This document shows positions 12,991 through 23,170 of a stretch of 64,000 nt of DNA, piece after piece. Position 1 is the first letter of the stretch; the number at the start of each line of letters is the position of its first letter. The notes under the pieces are model-generated. The model had not been told where the DNA came from. It saw only the letters and a program-made list of their open reading frames with translations, and ran no database searches. A program made the position numbers and the translations under genes. This DNA is from Brevinematales bacterium (lineage in GTDB: Bacteria > Spirochaetota > Brevinematia > Brevinematales > GWF1-51-8). The stretch covers positions 1 through 64,000 of the forward strand of contig JAGVBZ010000008.1 in NCBI GenBank assembly GCA_020059465.1, given 5' to 3'.

Positions 12991-14445
12991 CTAATTGCCC
13001 TGCTTCTTGACCGCGGATTCTAACTGATTCCGCAGTTCCTTCAGGGCGTCTTCATTCCATACCAGACCGTATTTCTCGATGGAATTTGTCTGCCACTTCG
13101 TATATAACGTATCGTACTTTTCCTGCGCCAAATTCTTATAAATCATATTCGAGACCGATTCGAACGATACCGCCCCGTTGGTCGATACATAAAGCGATTT
13201 CGATTTCTCGTAATAACTCAGTACCTCCTTCGGTTTGACCGCCGAATATGCAGCCGAATAAAGCTGCGCTTTCAGATTATCCGTACAATACGTTTTTATC
13301 CATTCATCCTTGCGTTTCGCCAATTCGTTAATAAATTCCTGTTTGTTCTGCTCTCCTTTAGTATAACTCAATCCGGCGAAATATAAAAAATTCCTGAGAG
13401 ATTTCATCTCTTTTAGAAATGTATCGAAATTCAGGTTCTTCGCAAACCCCGGAGTGAAAATCTCTATCAAATCCTTACATTCCCGCCAATTGTAATCCCG
13501 TCCCCAGATATTGATGACGGGGGATTTTTCAGGAATCAATTCCAGCGTATACGGTATGCTGTTTATGACAATTCCTTTATTCTCCATGTAAATGCTGTAA
13601 AGTTCCTTCACCTGCTTTATCTTCATAATATTCTGCAGATTTTTATACTGCTGCTGAAAATTCCCGCCCGTTAACGTTTTAATTTCCTCCAATGACTTCT
13701 GCTTCGGCGTCTCGGCGATGAATACGATATGATAACCGTACTGTGTCTTCACAGGCTGGGCGAGAAGCCCCGTCGTTTTCGCGTCGAATAACGGCGCCTC
13801 GAACTCCGGGACGGTCATCCCCTCGATAATATACCCGACATCGCCGCCGCCCTTTGCGGTCAACGAGTCCTGCGAGTATTGTTTCGCGTAGTTTTCAAAT
13901 AACTGCTTCTGCGTAACAGAACTCTGAAGTCTGCCTATCATGTTGGTCGAAAGAATATAAGCCTGCGACCAGTATTCCTCGGTCAGCGCCGTGTTTGTCG
14001 AAGTTATCCCCTTCTTTTTCAGTATGGCGGGGACATCGATCAGGATATGCGAAACCCTTACAACCGGGAACTTGCTCTGCTGAAGCTCGGCTGTTTCCAG
14101 TTTCATTCCGGCCTCGTAGAGAAGCGACCAATACAGCTTTTTCATTTCCCGTTCGTAATACGGGGGGAAATCGGGCTGATTCGTAATCCCGGCATCCATC
14201 ATCTCAAGATATGCCAGTTCGGGAAGAATATAGCGTTCGAAAATCCCGATTTTCAGCCACTTCATATCGATCACAGAGTTCCCGATTTTCAGCGCCGCAT
14301 TCTCCAGATCGGTTTTTACCATTTCGCCTGTGACAACCCATTCGACCGCACCTTTTTTTACAAATCCGGCGATCCCAGCCGAGGAACACCCGGAAATCAT
14401 CCCGGTTAAAAATATGAATGCTATCCCGACTATTATATTTTTCAT
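12991..14445 (-). CDS. PpiC-type peptidyl-prolyl isomerase lipoprotein (copy 1)
   Basis: A 484-residue lipoprotein (lipobox ISGC) with SurA/PrsA-like organisation. An N-terminal helical region precedes a parvulin domain (about residues 120-240) containing VSHILIDV, GGGDVGY and YGYHIVFI, so both hallmark histidines are present. A C-terminal helical module carries INIWGRDYNWRECKDLI. It is the most divergent of three tandem paralogues (next: 14508-16172 and 16369-17898). The likely role is assisting folding of exported envelope proteins. It lies 62 nt behind a terminator-bearing gap and 11 nt before rnr, so it may be expressed by read-through or from a promoter I cannot identify. Confidence 0.8.
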   Translation of the reverse strand: MKNIIVGIAFIFLTGMISGCSSAGIAGFVKKGAVEWVVTGEMVKTDLENAALKIGNSVIDMKWLKIGIFERYILPELAYLEMMDAGITNQPDFPPYYEREMKKLYWSLLYEAGMKLETAELQQSKFPVVRVSHILIDVPAILKKKGITSTNTALTEEYWSQAYILSTNMIGRLQSSVTQKQLFENYAKQYSQDSLTAKGGGDVGYIIEGMTVPEFEAPLFDAKTTGLLAQPVKTQYGYHIVFIAETPKQKSLEEIKTLTGGNFQQQYKNLQNIMKIKQVKELYSIYMENKGIVINSIPYTLELIPEKSPVINIWGRDYNWRECKDLIEIFTPGFAKNLNFDTFLKEMKSLRNFLYFAGLSYTKGEQNKQEFINELAKRKDEWIKTYCTDNLKAQLYSAAYSAVKPKEVLSYYEKSKSLYVSTNGAVSFESVSNMIYKNLAQEKYDTLYTKWQTNSIEKYGLVWNEDALKELRNQLESAVKKQGN

Positions 14446-14471
14446 GGCAGTTCCTTCATTAATATAATAAA

Positions 14472-14495
14472 AAAGCGGGAGCTAACTCCCGCTTT
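14472..14495 (-). terminator. terminator between PpiC copies 2 and 1
   Basis: Perfect 10-bp stem AAAGCGGGAG/CTCCCGCTTT with a CTAA loop, followed on the minus strand by a T-rich tail, 13 nt after the copy-2 stop codon. Confidence 0.85.
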
Positions 14496-14507
14496 ATAAA
14501 ACTTACT

Positions 14508-16172
14508 TTACTTACCAGGTTGAGGCTGAACTTGTATTTTAGGCTGCGCTTGCGGCTGCCCTTGAGGCTGCCCGCCCTGCGCTTTCTGCTGCTCCTGCAT
14601 CATTTTCTTCTGCTTCTCTTCCCATTCCTTCTTCTTCTTTTCCTGTTCCTTCATATAGTTATCGACATCTTCCTTGATGGCCTTGCTGAGAGTCTTGATG
14701 CCCTCGTCGGAAACAACGACATTGTATTTCTTGAACACGCCTTCCTTCCACTGATTAATAAGCTGCATCTGGGAGTTGTTGGCAAGCTGCATTAATACCG
14801 TATTGGAAACCTGTGTGAAGGGAAGTGTTTCCATTACAGGCATTTTGGTCGCCTTATTGGTAACAACCAAACCCTTTTTATCTTTCTTAGCCTGCTGGAA
14901 CATAGTCATTTTCACGGTATTGTAGTAATTGGTCAGTTCGGCGTATTTGATCATACCTTTGGCCTGCTCGGCAAATTCCTTATCCATCGCGCCAGCGCAG
15001 AAATCAACCATAATATTCTTCTTGTTATTTGCATATTCCTTAGCGAATTCGGGTTTCTTATCAAGCCCTTCCTTCAACGCCTTCTCGGCATAGAACATGA
15101 ACTCCTTACAATTCCTGATCTGCTCGGCAAACGACGCTACCGTAAGGTTCTGCGAGAAGCCGGGAACAAACAGGTCGATAATCTCGCGGCACTTCGCCCA
15201 TGTGTAGGGAGTGCCCCAGATCTCGACAATCTTGGTGTCGTCGGGGAGACTGGCTATCGAATAAGATTTTCCGTCAACAGTAATATTGGTGTTTTTTATA
15301 TCGAGAGTGAACAAGTCCTTCATATTCAGGGACTTTAACGAGTTTTCAATCGCATACCATGTCCGTCCGGCTTCCTGTCCGACTTCGTTCTCGAGGTCCT
15401 TGAAGCTCATCATTTTTGCGGGAGTGGTGACATAGATAATATGGTATCCGTAAGTGGTTTTTACCGGCGCGGCGATCAGGCCTTTGCCCTTCATCGCGAA
15501 CACTGCCGATGAAAACTCGGGAACCATCTGACCGTCGGGGAAATATCCCAGGTCGCCGCCGCGTGCAGCGGAACCCGGATCATGGGACATGCCCTGCGCA
15601 AGCATCGCGAACTCCTTATCGAGGTCCTTCGCCATCTTGAGGGAATCTATCGTGTTCTTTGCCATCGCTTCGTTCTCTTTCCATTTCTGGTCGACTACCG
15701 CCGCATCGAGAGTAGCGTTGGTACCGTTTGTCAAATAGGTAGAAGGCACGGAAAGAAGGATGTGAGAGGCGCGCGCCAGAAGGAACTGTCCTTCCTGAAG
15801 CTGCTTGCGGAGAAATTCGTTTCCGAAACGGTTGAGGAGAGAATAGAACATCTGCTTCTCGGCCTTCTCGTATTCCGTCTTGAATTCCGGTTTATTGGTA
15901 TAACCCGATTCGATCATATCCATAGCCTTAAGCTCCATGATGACCAAGTTTTCGGTGATAAAGCTCTTCAGCCCGTTCAAATCTTCGGGAGCGATTCTTT
16001 TCTGAACCGCATAGTAGAACAATTCCTTACGGACATCGCCTACGACGAAAGAATGTTTCTGCCCCTTGAACTCATAAGATGCCATTTCGGCGCCGTCATA
16101 ATTCGCGCAGGAAAAAAACAATCCCGCGAAAAGCACCGACAAAACGATGGCGGTGATTTTTGTCATTTTCAT
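14508..16172 (-). CDS. PpiC-type peptidyl-prolyl isomerase lipoprotein (copy 2)
   Basis: I start at 16172 (554 residues) because AGGAG precedes this ATG by 7 nt; the ORF-track extension lacks a ribosome site. The lipobox is FFSC. The N-terminal helical part contains ESGYTNKPEFKTEYEKAEKQ. The parvulin domain has ASHILLSV, RGGDLGYF and YGYHIIYV. The C-terminal module has VEIWGTPYTWAKCREIIDLF followed by a segment resembling the N-terminal helix (GLDKKPEFAKEY), suggesting internal duplication around the parvulin insert. The protein ends in a Lys/Glu coiled coil and a Gln/Pro-rich tail. It has its own promoter and terminator. Confidence 0.85.
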   Translation of the reverse strand: MKMTKITAIVLSVLFAGLFFSCANYDGAEMASYEFKGQKHSFVVGDVRKELFYYAVQKRIAPEDLNGLKSFITENLVIMELKAMDMIESGYTNKPEFKTEYEKAEKQMFYSLLNRFGNEFLRKQLQEGQFLLARASHILLSVPSTYLTNGTNATLDAAVVDQKWKENEAMAKNTIDSLKMAKDLDKEFAMLAQGMSHDPGSAARGGDLGYFPDGQMVPEFSSAVFAMKGKGLIAAPVKTTYGYHIIYVTTPAKMMSFKDLENEVGQEAGRTWYAIENSLKSLNMKDLFTLDIKNTNITVDGKSYSIASLPDDTKIVEIWGTPYTWAKCREIIDLFVPGFSQNLTVASFAEQIRNCKEFMFYAEKALKEGLDKKPEFAKEYANNKKNIMVDFCAGAMDKEFAEQAKGMIKYAELTNYYNTVKMTMFQQAKKDKKGLVVTNKATKMPVMETLPFTQVSNTVLMQLANNSQMQLINQWKEGVFKKYNVVVSDEGIKTLSKAIKEDVDNYMKEQEKKKKEWEEKQKKMMQEQQKAQGGQPQGQPQAQPKIQVQPQPGK

Positions 16173-16218
16173 TCGGATTCTCCTTTGTATTTTACTATTC
16201 AATAAATAGTTAACAAAT

Positions 16219-16247
16219 ACTATAATGTAAAACAAGTTTTATATCAA
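16219..16247 (-). promoter_or_regulatory. promoter of PpiC copy 2
   Basis: Minus-strand TTGATA (16242-16247), 17-nt spacer, TATAGT (16219-16224), about 45 nt upstream of the start codon. Confidence 0.65.
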
Positions 16248-16368
16248 GAATCTTGACTGTTTTTCTGACAAATCAGGGTAATAGATAGAATTTCCCGTGT
16301 TTTCGATGCCTTTATTTTACGGATAAACAGGTTGTTAAAAATCTTCCGTGAACCCCGTTTTGCGGTTA

Positions 16369-17898
16369 TTATTTTAATTTATCCCCCAGATCTTTCTTGA
16401 CAGCGTCGAATAATACTTCCAAGCCCTTTTCGGAAAACTCGACGTGATAATTCTTCATCGCATTATTCTTCCATTCCGTATAGATATTTTTCTGATTCTG
16501 ATATATTAATTCGTCTGCTATTGCATTAGACGCTTTTTCAAATGGTATGGTCTCCATTTCCGGCTTTCCGGTCTTTTTATTCATGATGAAATCGCCCTTG
16601 ATATCCTTCTTGATCTCTACGTATTTTCCCATTTTTTTATGCTCCTGATAGTACTTCAGCACATCCGCTGGGGTAACCATTTTCGCCGCCTTCTCATGGA
16701 AAGCATCATGAAACTCATCGGCACATTGTTCGGTCAACACATCCTGAAGCTGTTTTTTATACTTCGCCTGAAAACCCGGGCTTTTATCGGCCCCGTCTGT
16801 CAGCGCTTTCTGCGCGAAGTACATGAATTCCCCGCAATTTCCGGTCTGTTCGCCGAATGAGATCAGGGTCATATTCGACGAAAACCCCGGCACAAAAATA
16901 TCGATAATCTTCCGGCATTTTTCCCATGTGTACGGCTCGCCCCAGATATCCATGAGTTTCATCCACGGCGGAAGAGTTTTCAGCGTGTAGGTATTCCCGC
17001 CGGCCAGTATCTCTGAGCTTTTATAATCGATGGAAAAATAAACGGCCAGATTCGCGTTTTTTAATCCATTCCCGACAGCCTGCCATATCCCGTTCACCGC
17101 CTCTCCCATTTTCTGCTCGACATCCCGATAGTTCATCAGTGCCGGCGGGAGAGTGACATAGATGATATGCCATCCGAATTTAGTTTTTACCGGATGGGGA
17201 ACCAGACCTTTCGTTTTCATCCCGAACACGGCGTCGGAAAACTCTTTCACCATAGTATATTCACTGAAATAACCCAGATCGCCCCCATTTTCCCCGGAGA
17301 GCGTATCGCCGGATAACTTTTTCGCCATCTCAGCGAAATCGTTCTCTAAATCCTTCGACTTCTTGAGCACTTCGAGGCTTTCCTTTGCGGCCGCCTCCTG
17401 CTTCAGCGATTTTTCCGCGAATTTCTCCGGCGACAGTTTTATCAGATGCCCGGCGACCTGAACAGTTTCCGGGACGGAGAATAAAATATGCGACGCGCCC
17501 GCGAAAAGAAATTTACCGTTAGTCAATAATGAATTTATGATGTCATTTCCGTATTCTCTGAGAAGCGTATAATAAATATAATCCTTTTTTGCCGCGAACT
17601 TGTTTTTAAATTCAGGAGTATTGGTCAATCCGGAAGCGGCGATTTCCCATTCCATCAACCGGGGTATAAGTATCTGCTCGGTAAAGCCGGATTTCAGGTT
17701 ATCCGTCGATTCGAGAATCATTTTCTGATAGTAAGCAATACCCGCCAAATCCTCACGGACATCGCCGACGGTTATTACGCTCTTCTGACCCATGCAGTCG
17801 TAGGATACGACTACCGTATTATCGACGCCGTCCGACGGGAATAGCGGCACGGTAACCATGATCGATAAAAAGACTAGATATACTTCTAAAAGTTTCAC
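16369..17898 (-). CDS. PpiC-type peptidyl-prolyl isomerase, secreted (copy 3)
   Basis: A 509-residue paralogue of the two preceding genes. It starts at GTG behind AGGAG (7-nt spacing). Its signal peptide (MKLLEVYLVFLSIMVTVPLFPS) has no lipobox cysteine, so unlike copies 1 and 2 it is probably soluble in the periplasm. The parvulin domain carries ASHILFSV, NGGDLGYF and FGWHIIYV, with both conserved histidines. The C-terminal module again shows MDIWGEPYTWEKCRKIIDIF with its cysteine. It lacks the Gln/Pro tail of copy 2. It is the first gene of the foldase array in transcription order. Confidence 0.82.
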   Translation of the reverse strand: MKLLEVYLVFLSIMVTVPLFPSDGVDNTVVVSYDCMGQKSVITVGDVREDLAGIAYYQKMILESTDNLKSGFTEQILIPRLMEWEIAASGLTNTPEFKNKFAAKKDYIYYTLLREYGNDIINSLLTNGKFLFAGASHILFSVPETVQVAGHLIKLSPEKFAEKSLKQEAAAKESLEVLKKSKDLENDFAEMAKKLSGDTLSGENGGDLGYFSEYTMVKEFSDAVFGMKTKGLVPHPVKTKFGWHIIYVTLPPALMNYRDVEQKMGEAVNGIWQAVGNGLKNANLAVYFSIDYKSSEILAGGNTYTLKTLPPWMKLMDIWGEPYTWEKCRKIIDIFVPGFSSNMTLISFGEQTGNCGEFMYFAQKALTDGADKSPGFQAKYKKQLQDVLTEQCADEFHDAFHEKAAKMVTPADVLKYYQEHKKMGKYVEIKKDIKGDFIMNKKTGKPEMETIPFEKASNAIADELIYQNQKNIYTEWKNNAMKNYHVEFSEKGLEVLFDAVKKDLGDKLK

Positions 17899-17983
17899 TG
17901 AACGCTCCTGCCCGGCATACCAGTATAAAGAAATAAGATATATCAGAAATAATAATATATCAAGAATTGGAAATGTAAAAAAC

Positions 17984-18013
17984 TATTGCATTAATTCACA
18001 CCCCCGCTATAAT
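17984..18013 (+). promoter_or_regulatory. promoter of the AT-rich repeat lipoprotein (repeat copy A)
   Basis: TTGCAT (17986-17991), 16-nt spacer, TATAAT (18008-18013). The 23 nt at 17984-18006 are identical to 19328-19350 in front of moxR. After one mismatch TATAATATT is also shared. Confidence 0.75.
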
Positions 18014-18070
18014 ATTTAAGATGATTCTCAACGCGTTGTATCATAGTATTCATCCGGAGAGGAGATTTAA

Positions 18071-19300
18071 ATGTCGTCGGAAGAAAAAAAGGAATATGGG
18101 ATTCTATCTAAAAAGACATTTATTGTAATTTTTTTTATTTCAGTATTATTATTTTCTTGCTCTCAAAATGGGAATAAGAATCCCGAGTCTAACACGGAAA
18201 TTGTATTACTAACGAATACTATTAATTCTACTATTACTATTTTTGCGGATAAAGAAATCATTACACCCTTAGGGCAGAAGATTAAAAAGGGAACTTATTA
18301 TATTAAGTATTCAACGGGAATGTACAAAGGATATATTCTTGCCGAGAATTGGAAAGATACAAATTTGGGAATGGTTTTAAAAGAAAATAGTTATGTTTTA
18401 TTATATAAAAACGGTAACCCAGAAAGACTCACACTTGCTAAAAACTGGGAAGAACCTTCAACAGGAATGGTTATTAAAGCAAATAATGAAATTCAATTAT
18501 ATATAAGTGGAAACTTGAAAAAATTCATAATCGCTAATAATGCAAAAGATATAAAAAACGGGATGATTTTTAAAGCAAATTCCGAAGTGCTCTTCTTTCA
18601 AAACGGTTATCCGAATAAGTTCATACTCGTAGAAAATTGGAAAAAACCTGATAACGGAATGATTCTAAAAGCAAATACCCCTATTATTAAGTATGAAAAT
18701 GGGAATTTTCAAAAATTCACGCTTGCCAAAGAATGGAAAGACCCAAATACCGGAATGTTTCTAAGAGATAATTTTGAGTTTAATTGGTATGAAAACGGGA
18801 ATCCGGTAAATTTTGTTCTTGCTAAGGATTGGAGAGATCCAAAAAATAATATGATAATAAAAGCAGATACGGAGGTTCTGCAATATAAAAACGGTAATTT
18901 TAAAAAAATAGTACTCGGTGAGGATTGGAACGATCCAAAAACAGGAAAGATTCTTAAAGGCAATACCGAGGTTTTATGGTATGAAAATGGAGGTATCAGT
19001 AAATTTACCCTCGCAGAAAACTGGAAAGGTTCTGAATCAGGAATTGTTTTTAAAAAGAATACAGAAGTGTTCCTTTTTAAAAACGGAAGTCTTCAAAAGT
19101 TTATTATTGCTGAAAACTGGAGAAGTCCGAATATAGGAATAATAATAAAAGCAGATACAGAAGTAATAATGTATGAAAACGGAAAGTTTAAAAAACTTAT
19201 TCTTGCCGATGACTTTAATGAATTTAAAGCAGGGTCTACTATCTATATTTCACCTAGCGGAACTCCAAAAGTTTTCGATCCGGCAACGGACATTTTATAA
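18071..19300 (+). CDS. AT-rich lipoprotein made of 32-residue repeats
   Basis: A 409-residue protein starting at ATG behind AGGAG. It has a short cytoplasmic N-tail, one hydrophobic segment and lipobox LFSC (Cys about 30). From about residue 70 to 400 it consists of nine or so tandem 32-residue units of the form 'nG-nh-k-F-hLA-pW-dP-p-tGMhhKApTEVhhY' (consensus in classes; h hydrophobic, p polar), one unit reading ENGNFQKFTLAKEWKDPNTG. The regularity suggests a beta-solenoid or stacked beta-hairpin rod at the cell surface. I do not recognise the family; MORN, WG and YD repeats have different lengths. The base composition (about one-third GC) and codon use differ sharply from the neighbours, indicating recent acquisition. 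Confidence 0.75.
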   Translation: MSSEEKKEYGILSKKTFIVIFFISVLLFSCSQNGNKNPESNTEIVLLTNTINSTITIFADKEIITPLGQKIKKGTYYIKYSTGMYKGYILAENWKDTNLGMVLKENSYVLLYKNGNPERLTLAKNWEEPSTGMVIKANNEIQLYISGNLKKFIIANNAKDIKNGMIFKANSEVLFFQNGYPNKFILVENWKKPDNGMILKANTPIIKYENGNFQKFTLAKEWKDPNTGMFLRDNFEFNWYENGNPVNFVLAKDWRDPKNNMIIKADTEVLQYKNGNFKKIVLGEDWNDPKTGKILKGNTEVLWYENGGISKFTLAENWKGSESGIVFKKNTEVFLFKNGSLQKFIIAENWRSPNIGIIIKADTEVIMYENGKFKKLILADDFNEFKAGSTIYISPSGTPKVFDPATDIL

Positions 19301-19327
19301 ATATCCCCTGCTTTCCTATTAAATATT

Positions 19328-19357
19328 TATTGCATTAATTCACACCCCCGATATAAT
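19328..19357 (+). promoter_or_regulatory. promoter of the MoxR operon (repeat copy B)
   Basis: TTGCAT (19330-19335), 16-nt spacer, TATAAT (19352-19357). It duplicates the promoter at 17984-18013, 1344 bp upstream. Confidence 0.75.
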
Positions 19358-19412
19358 ATTAAAGTCGATTCTGGCGCGCCCCGAGGCGTTAAAAAATATT
19401 CAGGAGACGTGT

Positions 19413-20411
19413 ATGGAATTCGGAGAAATTCAGGTCTATTCGGAAAAGATGATCGCCAATATAGAAAAGGTCATAGTCGGCAAACGCGCCGTGATCGAGA
19501 AAGCCCTTGTCGCGCTGTTCTGCAAGGGGCATATCCTCCTGGAGGACGTGCCCGGACTCGGTAAGACCATGCTCGCGCGTTCGATCGCGAAATCGATCGA
19601 CGGGACGTTCCGGCGTATCCAGGGTACGCCCGACCTGCTGCCCGCGGATATCATCGGCGTATCCATATTCAACCCGTCCACCAAGAAGTTCGAATTCCGT
19701 CCCGGCCCCGTGTTCGCCCAGCTCGTGCTGGTGGACGAAATCAACCGCGCCACCCCGAAAACGCAGTCGGCGCTCCTCGAGGCCATGGGCGAGACCCAGA
19801 TATCCGTCGAGGGTATGGGCATCAAACTGCCCCAGCCGTTCGTGGTGTTCGCCACCCAGAACCCCATCGAGTTCGAGGGAACATTCCCGCTTCCCGAAGC
19901 GCAGATGGACCGTTTCTTCGTCAGCCTGTCGATCGGATATCCCGACCAGCAGGAGGAGGAGGAAATCATCCTTCGCCAGCAGACCCGCCACCCTATAGAA
20001 AGCCTCACCCCTGTGGTGACTCCCGACATCGTGCTGGCCATCCAACAGCAGGTGTCGAGCGTGCATGTCGATAACACATTACGCAGTTATATCATGAAAA
20101 TCATATTGGCCACCCGTACCGATTCCAACCTGATGCTCGGCTCGTCGCCCCGCGGAAGTATTTCGCTCTATAAGGCGGTGCAGGCGTTCGCGGCGTTAAA
20201 CGGAAGGGACTATGTCATCCCCGAGGATATCAAGTCCCTCGCCGTACCGGTGCTCAAGCACAGGATTATCCTGAAGTCGGAATCGAAGCTGAAGAACCTG
20301 AAACCCGAGAGTGTGATCGAACGTATCCTTTCGACTATTCCGGTACCGATGGAGGAGGAGACTCAGGGTACTGTCGATGCGAAACAATCCATGGAAATGA
20401 GGAACCAGTAG
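19413..20411 (+). CDS. MoxR-family AAA+ ATPase
   Basis: A 332-residue AAA+ protein of the MoxR/RavA class. Walker A (EDVPGLGKT) lies near residues 47-55 and Walker B (LVDEINRA) near 108-115; sensor-type FATQNPIEFEGTFPLPEAQMDRF is typical of the family. MoxR ATPases act as chaperones that activate metal- or vWA-domain partners. Here the partner is probably the DUF58 protein encoded 4 nt downstream. The start has CAGGAG 7 nt upstream. It is the first gene of a three-gene plus-strand operon. Neighbour order MoxR-DUF58-DUF4129 is a common conserved arrangement. Confidence 0.92.
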   Translation: MEFGEIQVYSEKMIANIEKVIVGKRAVIEKALVALFCKGHILLEDVPGLGKTMLARSIAKSIDGTFRRIQGTPDLLPADIIGVSIFNPSTKKFEFRPGPVFAQLVLVDEINRATPKTQSALLEAMGETQISVEGMGIKLPQPFVVFATQNPIEFEGTFPLPEAQMDRFFVSLSIGYPDQQEEEEIILRQQTRHPIESLTPVVTPDIVLAIQQQVSSVHVDNTLRSYIMKIILATRTDSNLMLGSSPRGSISLYKAVQAFAALNGRDYVIPEDIKSLAVPVLKHRIILKSESKLKNLKPESVIERILSTIPVPMEEETQGTVDAKQSMEMRNQ

Positions 20412-20415
20412 CCCG

Positions 20416-21597
20416 ATGAAAACCGGCAAACTTGTTCTCATCTGCCTTTTCCTGATCGCGAACTTTCTTCTTGTCGATTTCCCGGGCGCGAAAATCGTTC
20501 TCGCGCTGGCGATTGTCGTCGTAGTATTCAATTACCTTTATACGCGCGGGGTCAAACGGGAGCTTTCCGTCCGGCGTTTTATGGATACCGAAAAGGTATT
20601 CATGGGGCTGTCCGAGGACACGTCGCTTGTTTCGGCGAACAGTTTCTTCCTGCCCCTGCACGCCCTGATTATCCATGACTCCGCCGATCTGAATATTTCC
20701 ATCCAGCAGATGCATTATTTCCTATTCTCCATAGACCCCATGAGCTCGGAGCTGGCGAATTACCAGCTTTTCGGGCGGAAACGCGGGAAATACCATGTCG
20801 GGCCGACCCGCGCGAAATTCACGGACTTCATGGGCATCAATTCATTCACCCTTGAGTACGACACTATGAAAGAAATCATCGTATTCCCGAATATATATAT
20901 CGTCGCGAACATGCCGTTCAAGAGCCTCCAGCCCTACGGATCGATCCGGAACAACCTCCGTATCTTCGAAGACCCCACTATGATCGTCGGGCTGAAGGAG
21001 TACCAGTACGGCGACGAGATCAAGAAGATCAACTGGAAGGTGTCCGCCAAGTACGATAAGCTCTATATCAATACCTACCAGCCCGCCATATCCGCGGGAA
21101 GTATGCTGATCCTCAACCTTGCCGACAGCGATTACACGTTCAGGAATAAAGAGTACTATATGGAACAGTCCATAGAAATCTCCGCGTCGTTTATCCGGCA
21201 CCTTTTTATCTACCGTCAGGAGATCGCGCTCGCCGTGAACTGCCGGGTCGACCGAATCGATACGAAAATTATCTCGGAGATCAATAAGGGGGACGCGCAT
21301 TTTACCCGGCTCCTGACCAGCCTTTCGCTGATGGAGCCTGCGATGCAGACGCCGTTTTCGAGCCTGCTCGACCAGTCCGCGCTCAACCTGAAATGGGGCA
21401 CATGTATTTATATCGTGACCCCGCGCCTCGACGAGGCCTCGCTGTACAAGCTTCTCGAATTCCGGCGTACCGGGCATACGGTCACCCTCATCAACCTCGG
21501 CCCGGAAATCCAGAAGGATATGAGCCTGTGGAATATCGGATTCCAGTCCTTCTTCGCGGAAATTGAGGGTAACCTGATTAACCTATTAAGGATATGA
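20416..21597 (+). CDS. DUF58 domain protein
   Basis: A 393-residue protein with two hydrophobic N-terminal segments (LVLICLFLIANFLLVDF and IVLALAIVVVVFNYLY), then a beta-rich region, then the DUF58 core with the signature GLKEYQYGDEIKKINWKVSA near residue 192. The C-terminal part resembles the vWA-like fold that usually follows DUF58. It is probably membrane-anchored with the domain in the cytoplasm, working with the MoxR ATPase. Biochemical function is unknown in this family. Spacing to moxR is 4 nt and to the next gene 1 nt, so translation is coupled. Confidence 0.85.
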   Translation: MKTGKLVLICLFLIANFLLVDFPGAKIVLALAIVVVVFNYLYTRGVKRELSVRRFMDTEKVFMGLSEDTSLVSANSFFLPLHALIIHDSADLNISIQQMHYFLFSIDPMSSELANYQLFGRKRGKYHVGPTRAKFTDFMGINSFTLEYDTMKEIIVFPNIYIVANMPFKSLQPYGSIRNNLRIFEDPTMIVGLKEYQYGDEIKKINWKVSAKYDKLYINTYQPAISAGSMLILNLADSDYTFRNKEYYMEQSIEISASFIRHLFIYRQEIALAVNCRVDRIDTKIISEINKGDAHFTRLLTSLSLMEPAMQTPFSSLLDQSALNLKWGTCIYIVTPRLDEASLYKLLEFRRTGHTVTLINLGPEIQKDMSLWNIGFQSFFAEIEGNLINLLRI

Positions 21598-21598
21598 T

Positions 21599-23170
21599 AT
21601 GTGGACTGCCAGCCGTAAAATATACCGCGCTTTCCTATGGTTATACACCGCCTCGGCGGTAACCATTATCTATTATACATTCTGTATCTATCTGCTCGGC
21701 ACTGGACTGCAGTACCTGTGGATCATCGGTTATATTTTCATAGCGTCCTTTTTCCTGACCGTCTTCTATCATTCGAGGAAGCTGTCCAACGTTTTCGCGA
21801 TATTCGCGGCATTCACCGCGTCGATGATCGTTATCTACGCAGTTAAATTCGCCCTGCTTTTCGCGCTCCCGCCGAAAACGTTTTATAACCTCGACGACGT
21901 CGGACTCGCTATCACCGGGGTAACCATCTTCCTCCTGATCCTCGGGATATTCCTGCTGGTCAACGGTAAATTCGATAGCCTCGACAAGATATTGGTGATG
22001 GAAGAATCGATCACCGATAAAGAAAAATATATTTCGTTTCTCAAGGAAGTGTTCGCCGGCAATAAGAAGCATATGGAAGTCGAACGGTTCGTCGGGGGCG
22101 CTGGCAACTTCGGACTCCTGTTCCTGACCATCACGCTGATCACCCTGCTCCGCGACCCTTCGGCAAAATGGATATACTCTATCGGGTTTCTGATTTTCAC
22201 AGTCAGCGCTATCGGAATATATCTCATCCTGTACCAGATGAAATCCGTGCTGGAATGGAAGCTCCTGGGATATGACGTTCCCCAGTCGATGACCCGGAAA
22301 TGGAACAAGCTCTTCGTGTGGTTCTTCATCCCGGTGATCGTTATCCCGCTCCTGATACCGTGGGACTACCAGATATTCCAGTCGAAAACGCTGAATAGTT
22401 TTATTTCCGAACAGACCGCCGGAATAAAGAAGATCGACTTTTCAGTGAAACCGGCGGTCAAGCCCCAGACTGTCACCAATACGAATCAGTCGTATATACA
22501 GGATACCAACGCCCAGTTGACGGTGACGGAAACACCTATTGAGGAGCCTGTGACCGGAATACAAACCCTGCTGCCGGTATTCTATGTATTCGCCGGGTTT
22601 ATCGGATTTTACCTGATCCTCGCGATCATCGGGGGCATACTGAGCGCCGCCTACCGTTATAAAAAACGCTCGCCGTTCATCGAGTTCATGATACGCCGTT
22701 ATAAACGAATACAGATCATCCTGCAGGTCATCGGGGGATTGTTCGTGATGATGGGCAAACTCTTCCTCGCGATCTTCGGATTCCATAAATTCAAACGCGG
22801 CCCTGCCGACCGCGAACTTTCCAGTCCGGTCGCCCAGCAATTATTCGCGCTGTTCAATATGGAAAAGGAACTGCCCGACGAAAAACAGGACGAGATCAAG
22901 ACTATTATCCGCGAGTTTGTCCGGCTGATCGACGTCCTGAACCGGTATGTCATACCCTACCGTTTCTATTACGGGCCGATGGAGTATATCGAAAAAGTAA
23001 TCAAAGAGATGCCCGAAGAAGAGAATGAACTGAAAGTAATAGTAACCATTTTTAACGAAAGCCGTTACAGCCTCCATCTTCTGGACGATGAGAAGAAAAG
23101 CCGTTACATGGTATCTACGGCAAATGTTATCAGTAATGCCGGGCAGAACCGTGAAGTACAGAATCCTTAG
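21599..23170 (+). CDS. multi-pass membrane protein with DUF4129-like C-terminus
   Basis: A 523-residue protein with about eight to nine membrane segments through residue ~380 and a cytoplasmic C-terminal region. The tail contains GPMEYIEKVIKEMPEEENEL followed by ESRYSLH, which resembles the DUF4129 pattern found in the third gene of MoxR-DUF58 operons. A polar loop (about residues 270-310) is rich in Thr/Pro/Gln and probably extracytoplasmic. The start is 1 nt after the DUF58 stop, with AAGGA upstream. After the TAG stop the same frame continues for 38 more codons encoding a hydrophobic segment (see findings), which could mean a nonsense-truncated longer protein. Confidence 0.7.
   Translation: MWTASRKIYRAFLWLYTASAVTIIYYTFCIYLLGTGLQYLWIIGYIFIASFFLTVFYHSRKLSNVFAIFAAFTASMIVIYAVKFALLFALPPKTFYNLDDVGLAITGVTIFLLILGIFLLVNGKFDSLDKILVMEESITDKEKYISFLKEVFAGNKKHMEVERFVGGAGNFGLLFLTITLITLLRDPSAKWIYSIGFLIFTVSAIGIYLILYQMKSVLEWKLLGYDVPQSMTRKWNKLFVWFFIPVIVIPLLIPWDYQIFQSKTLNSFISEQTAGIKKIDFSVKPAVKPQTVTNTNQSYIQDTNAQLTVTETPIEEPVTGIQTLLPVFYVFAGFIGFYLILAIIGGILSAAYRYKKRSPFIEFMIRRYKRIQIILQVIGGLFVMMGKLFLAIFGFHKFKRGPADRELSSPVAQQLFALFNMEKELPDEKQDEIKTIIREFVRLIDVLNRYVIPYRFYYGPMEYIEKVIKEMPEEENELKVIVTIFNESRYSLHLLDDEKKSRYMVSTANVISNAGQNREVQNP

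Follow-up and report, generated by a model that had tools for sequence, protein, structure and literature searches.

Two near-identical promoters on either side of an AT-rich lipoprotein gene: lineage-specific promoter copying at the MoxR operon of a Brevinematales bacterium

Introduction

In the genome of an uncultured spirochaete of the Brevinematales (assembly GCA_020059465.1), the gene for a MoxR AAA+ ATPase and the AT-rich lipoprotein gene directly upstream of it are preceded by the same 23-nt sequence, which covers most of a promoter. How two neighbouring genes came to share this sequence, and whether gene and promoter arrived together, is the question raised by this locus. The first-pass annotation of the 64,000-nt stretch analysed here (positions 1 to 64,000 of contig JAGVBZ010000008.1, hereafter the window) had proposed that the gene was inserted in front of the MoxR operon with duplication of the promoter, and that the unit might be an on/off cassette; the alternative that it offered was an operator shared by a regulon.

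The moxR gene (19413..20411, forward strand; AAA_3 and AAA_lid_2) is followed on the same strand by the gene for a DUF58 protein (20416..21597) and by a third gene of the operon (21599..23170), which encodes a membrane protein with a sub-threshold match to DUF4129. Such gene sets of spirochaetes have been suggested to form an operon without clear function (PMC5700661). Between rnr and the lipoprotein gene lie three tandem genes for PPIC-type rotamases, alike and on the reverse strand (12991-17898), among them the divergent gene PPI_c (16369..17898, reverse strand).

Results

The moxR promoter lies in a 53-nt direct repeat

The 23-mer TATTGCATTAATTCACACCCCCG is found, exact and on the forward strand, at 17984-18006 and 19328-19350, where the first-pass annotation had placed it. 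The two copies are the core of a direct repeat longer than had been reported, of 53 nt with 87% identity (17976-18028 and 19320-19372, forward strand), with a spacing of 1344 bp between the copies. Both have the layout TTGCAT - 16 nt - TATAAT: the upstream copy, the putative promoter of the lipoprotein gene, has its -35 hexamer at 17986-17991 and its -10 hexamer at 18008-18013, and the downstream copy, the putative moxR promoter, has them at 19330-19335 and 19352-19357. The promoter was missed by a generic promoter scan because the -35 hexamer is poor, agreeing with TTGACA at three of six positions. Over 44 nt, which take in the two hexamers, the spacer and 8 nt on each side, the two copies are identical at 38 positions, 15 of the 16 spacer positions being common to both. 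When the 44-nt moxR promoter was compared with both strands of the window, the best place other than the upstream copy matched at 24 positions; the near-identity of the copies extends beyond the functional positions and exceeds this background maximum, as is characteristic of recent promoter copying. In the 5' leaders past the 53-nt repeat, the likeness is not significant (p 0.06).

A genome-wide search for TATTGCATTAATTCACACCCCCG, allowing up to 3 mismatches, returned 2 sites in the whole 3.19-Mb genome; none is expected in the shuffled window. A regulon operator is excluded for this genome by the finding of only two such sites. Promoters of a looser form, TATTGAATTTTTTCA...TATAATATT, are present at an unrelated cluster of lipoprotein-like genes in this genome and in the related genome G002, and were rejected as a regulon, only the -35 and -10 being common. 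The promoter of that cluster has a very short leader (L100 2871-2920 and L101 2639-2690, both on the reverse strand).

The AT-rich gene encodes a predicted beta-repeat lipoprotein

The gene between the two copies (18071..19300, forward strand) encodes a protein of 409 aa made of nine 32-aa repeats and a capping unit. Its GC content is 31.0%, in agreement with the earlier estimate of about one-third, and its GC3 of 0.271 is the lowest of the 45 ORFs of the window (mean 0.613, sd 0.087). It is the clearest composition outlier of the window and, in this respect, resembles an inserted cassette. By inspection, the N-terminus comprises a hydrophobic segment and then a lipobox-like LLFSC; given this probable lipobox, the product is likely to be an envelope lipoprotein.

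No Pfam family scored above cut-off with the protein, so the MORN_2 gathering score was not reached, and a distant homologue in genome G081, scoring 28.8 bits, likewise fell short of the MORN_2 cut-off (29.6). Searches of NCBIfam, PHROGs and PDB sequences returned nothing usable, and no homologue was found in viral contigs. A first structure model, obtained with 3 sequences, was poor (pLDDT 46) and was set aside. With three distant homologues added, AlphaFold2 predicted a regular beta-strand repeat with a mean pLDDT of 81, about half of the residues being at pLDDT 90 or above. Foldseek matched this model to MORN-repeat proteins (E down to 6e-10) and to engineered OspA (E 1e-6), with TM-scores so low, about 0.2-0.3, that the likeness is one of repeat style and not of family; the remaining PDB matches, to long beta-repeat shells, come from repetition alone. 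The model thus predicts a MORN/OspA-like beta-repeat protein. Each of the four genus genomes also encodes a conserved distant relative of 269-300 aa with KAGxxVxFYExGKxxxGxL repeats (in G000, at G000:C6:39589-40302).

The lipoprotein gene is older at this site than the promoter copy

The genus comparison covered four genomes, namely that of the window (G000), G001 (GWF1_49_6), G002 and G003 (GWF1_51_8), and the informative related loci are only three: contig C18 of G002 and contigs C23 and C7, both from the GWF1_51_8 bin. That bin seems to be a mixed one. In it rnr occurs twice, at 88% and 67% identity to the copy in the window, and G001 contains none; in addition, C23 ends inside the first 124 codons of moxR and a G001 contig (G001:C25) starts at codon 154. 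On account of the rnr counts and of these complementary moxR ends, C23 probably belongs to GWF1_49_6.

A homologous lipoprotein gene is present at the same site, flanked by the PPIase genes and moxR, in G002 (425 aa, 47% identity, GC3 0.66) and in C23 (379 aa, 47% identity, GC3 0.63), the identity ranging from 43 to 47% depending on the alignment. A genus-wide pattern search for the promoter motif yielded two copies in G000 and one each in G002 and C23, before moxR, and this single copy in close relatives is again what recent copying leaves behind. The G002 and C23 lipoprotein genes have another promoter, itself composed of TTGC, a 16-nt spacing and TATAAT. A new insertion of the gene along with its promoter is not supported, since these homologues of normal GC stand at the exact site behind a different promoter. 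Gene and promoter copy therefore have separate histories, the gene being the older of the two. What stands of the proposed duplication is the second promoter, which is specific to the G000 lineage; its joint insertion with the gene finds no support. The annotation had itself named, as evidence against insertion, a gene of normal composition conserved at the site together with both promoters: the conserved gene was found, the conserved pair of promoters was not. An older duplication in G002 and C23 was also considered and rejected, the two promoters of each agreeing at 25 and 27 of 44 nt, no more than the moxR promoter shares with some other places in the roughly 200 kb of those genomes that were compared.

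In C7, the syntenic region runs from a phosphodiesterase gene through rnr and three PPIase genes to moxR, DUF58 and on, without the lipoprotein gene and with one moxR promoter. Protein distances give the order ((G002, C23), G000), C7, and rnr identity is 67% for C7 against 88-89% within the clade of G000, G002 and C23. The comparison with an empty site, which the annotation had suggested, thus does find a single-promoter site without the gene in C7, but the closest relatives, G002 and C23, carry the gene. The gene is absent from order-level relatives. As judged from these sequences, it is a clade-specific, fast-evolving gene in front of a MoxR-DUF58-DUF4129 operon. The rotamase gene PPI_c is fast-evolving too; it is 54% identical to its G002 counterpart and missing from C23, and turnover is rapid over the whole stretch from PPI_b to moxR. 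The moxR leader of C23 is more than 100 nt longer than that of G002, the added stretch containing short TTCGCG-type repeats (L050 380-540).

The second promoter copy arose in the G000 lineage

Both G000 copies differ in the same way from the moxR promoters of G002 and C23: the spacer has CACACC where the relatives have CATTCC, TATAATATT stands in place of TATAATACT, and GATTCT follows the -10. That both copies have these differences in common places the origin of the second one in the G000 lineage. The sequence 5' of the upstream copy (ATATCAAGAAT, near 17960) still resembles C23, and hence the replaced stretch begins close to 17970. If anything, the upstream copy is closer to the sister moxR promoters than is the moxR-side copy (46 against 42 of 58 positions, to G002), and it keeps the sister features AAAAAACTATTGC, C before TATAAT and AGATGAT, which the moxR-side copy has lost. 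This likeness fits an insertion between the old and the new promoter as well as it fits conversion.

Replacement or drift of the AT-rich allele

Two things are private to the G000 lineage, the second promoter copy and an AT-rich, 47%-identical allele of the lipoprotein gene. The reading that I favour, and to which I give about an even chance, is that, once the G000 and G002 lineages had separated, a copy of the moxR promoter overwrote that of the lipoprotein gene, probably with replacement of the allele. The strongest competitor, possible though clearly less probable, is vertical descent: the gene would have evolved fast and drifted towards AT-rich codons, and gene conversion over about 50 nt between the promoters would have been a separate event. 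The lipoprotein is 47% identical to both sister proteins, its neighbours mostly 69-92% (PPI_c 54%). Its distances nevertheless bear the same ratio to those of rnr in both comparisons (0.22 against 0.036 for G002-C23, 0.756 against 0.12 for G000-G002), the lipoprotein evolving about six times faster each time. Given this equality of rates across both splits, the divergence of the protein could have come about by vertical descent alone, and by itself it is no evidence of foreign origin. Drift gains further from the fast evolution of the neighbouring PPI_c, and from the GC content of the intergenic DNA of the window, about 40-43%, towards which lost codon selection would lower that of the gene. 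Yet PPI_c evolves fast without a shift in composition (GC3 0.56), and the lipoprotein GC3, 0.27, is below even the intergenic GC content. At 4-fold sites, identity between G000 and G002 is 0.28 for the lipoprotein gene and 0.51-0.74 for its neighbours. Finally, the repeats of G002 and C23 correspond unit by unit (a correspondence seen in none of 5000 shuffles), but repeat positions in G000 show no correspondence to those of the sisters (p 0.47 for G002, p 0.58 for C23). The GC3, the 4-fold identity and the lost unit-by-unit correspondence, taken together, favour a replaced allele over drift. No closer homologue or donor of the AT-rich allele was found among 393 genomes of the phylum.

Insertion of the AT-rich gene, with promoter duplication, into an empty site before moxR is unlikely in the form in which it survives, namely after loss of an earlier resident gene. 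The syntenic, empty, single-promoter site of C7 and the sister moxR features (AAAAAACTATTGC and the others) retained by the upstream copy are what such an insertion would leave. However, it demands that this gene family was lost from the site and later returned to it, and C7, being outside the clade (rnr 67%), does not show an empty state in the G000 lineage. Of the other marks of an inserted cassette, a donor was lacking in the phylum sample, and no integrase or transposase was recognised by eye among the ORFs around the locus.

It is very improbable that selection keeps the two promoters alike because a regulator binds the spacer as a shared operator. Sigma-70 promoters do not require spacer identity, and the moxR spacer TAATTCAnnCCCCCG is kept in G002 and C23; against this, there are only two copies genome-wide, the spacer is conserved neither in the C7 moxR promoter nor in the sister lipoprotein promoters, and the likeness between G002 and C23 runs on into the flanks. 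Least probable of all is the on/off cassette, in which recombination between the 53-nt copies would delete the 1344-bp unit in a subpopulation and leave moxR one intact promoter: the arrangement suits it, the direct repeats having 23 bases in a row in common, but this run of identity is short, a deleted unit would not come back unless imported anew, and such deletion is a possible consequence of the repeats, not evidence of a switch.

Discussion

On the simplest account, the common ancestor of G000, G002 and C23 already had the lipoprotein gene at this site, the gene having been either gained in that ancestor or lost in C7. In the reading that I favour, the neighbouring moxR promoter was then copied over the gene's original promoter in G000, once this lineage had diverged from that of G002, whether by local duplication, by gene conversion or through recombination at the promoter itself. 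The same recombination event, or a related one, probably brought in the AT-rich coding sequence, a replacement allele whose source would be an unsampled relative. Near-identical promoters of the sigma-70 type would now drive both the lipoprotein gene and the MoxR operon, from which co-expression is predicted; the copied promoter would thereby tie an envelope lipoprotein to the expression of the operon. In a bolder version, which I consider a long shot, the moxR promoter is a recombination target at which lipoprotein alleles, or none, are swapped while the operon always keeps a promoter. Short promoter homology would then admit incoming DNA, and the locus would serve the genus as a small site of allele exchange. 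Unless such exchange or switching holds, the wider consequences are limited.

Since near relatives have the gene there with its own promoter, the locus is best read as local promoter copying of an ordinary kind, and not as a new foreign cassette or an established on/off switch. It also shows that a gene of outlying composition can lie between direct repeats without being a new insertion. The copying is real, lineage-specific and of a kind already described (PMC5906472): 15% of random-sequence strains relocated an existing promoter. There as here, a near-identical promoter of the neighbourhood comes to stand upstream of another gene. This locus differs in that the genome is natural, that a pre-existing promoter was replaced and that a diverged allele lies alongside, all known from sequence alone; it offers a clean natural case, dated by relatives, of a promoter copied to a neighbouring gene. 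Oren et al. 2014 (cited in PMC5019451) reportedly described regulatory rewiring by transfer of non-coding DNA. In that rewiring, as in the present case, regulatory DNA is swapped and the gene stays at its locus, but the replacing sequence here came from the adjoining promoter within one genome and not from the homologous region of another strain.

The lipoprotein itself is predicted to share a regular beta-strand repeat with MORN-type proteins and with the single-layer beta-sheet of OspA, from which its 32-aa repeat, its lack of a Pfam family above cut-off and its low TM-scores set it apart. The operon has the order known from spirochaete MoxR-DUF58 (Bat-type aerotolerance) sets, a MoxR AAA+ ATPase and then DUF58 and membrane proteins (PMC5700661), and is distinguished from them by the upstream lipoprotein gene, which, among the genomes searched, is confined at this site to the genus.
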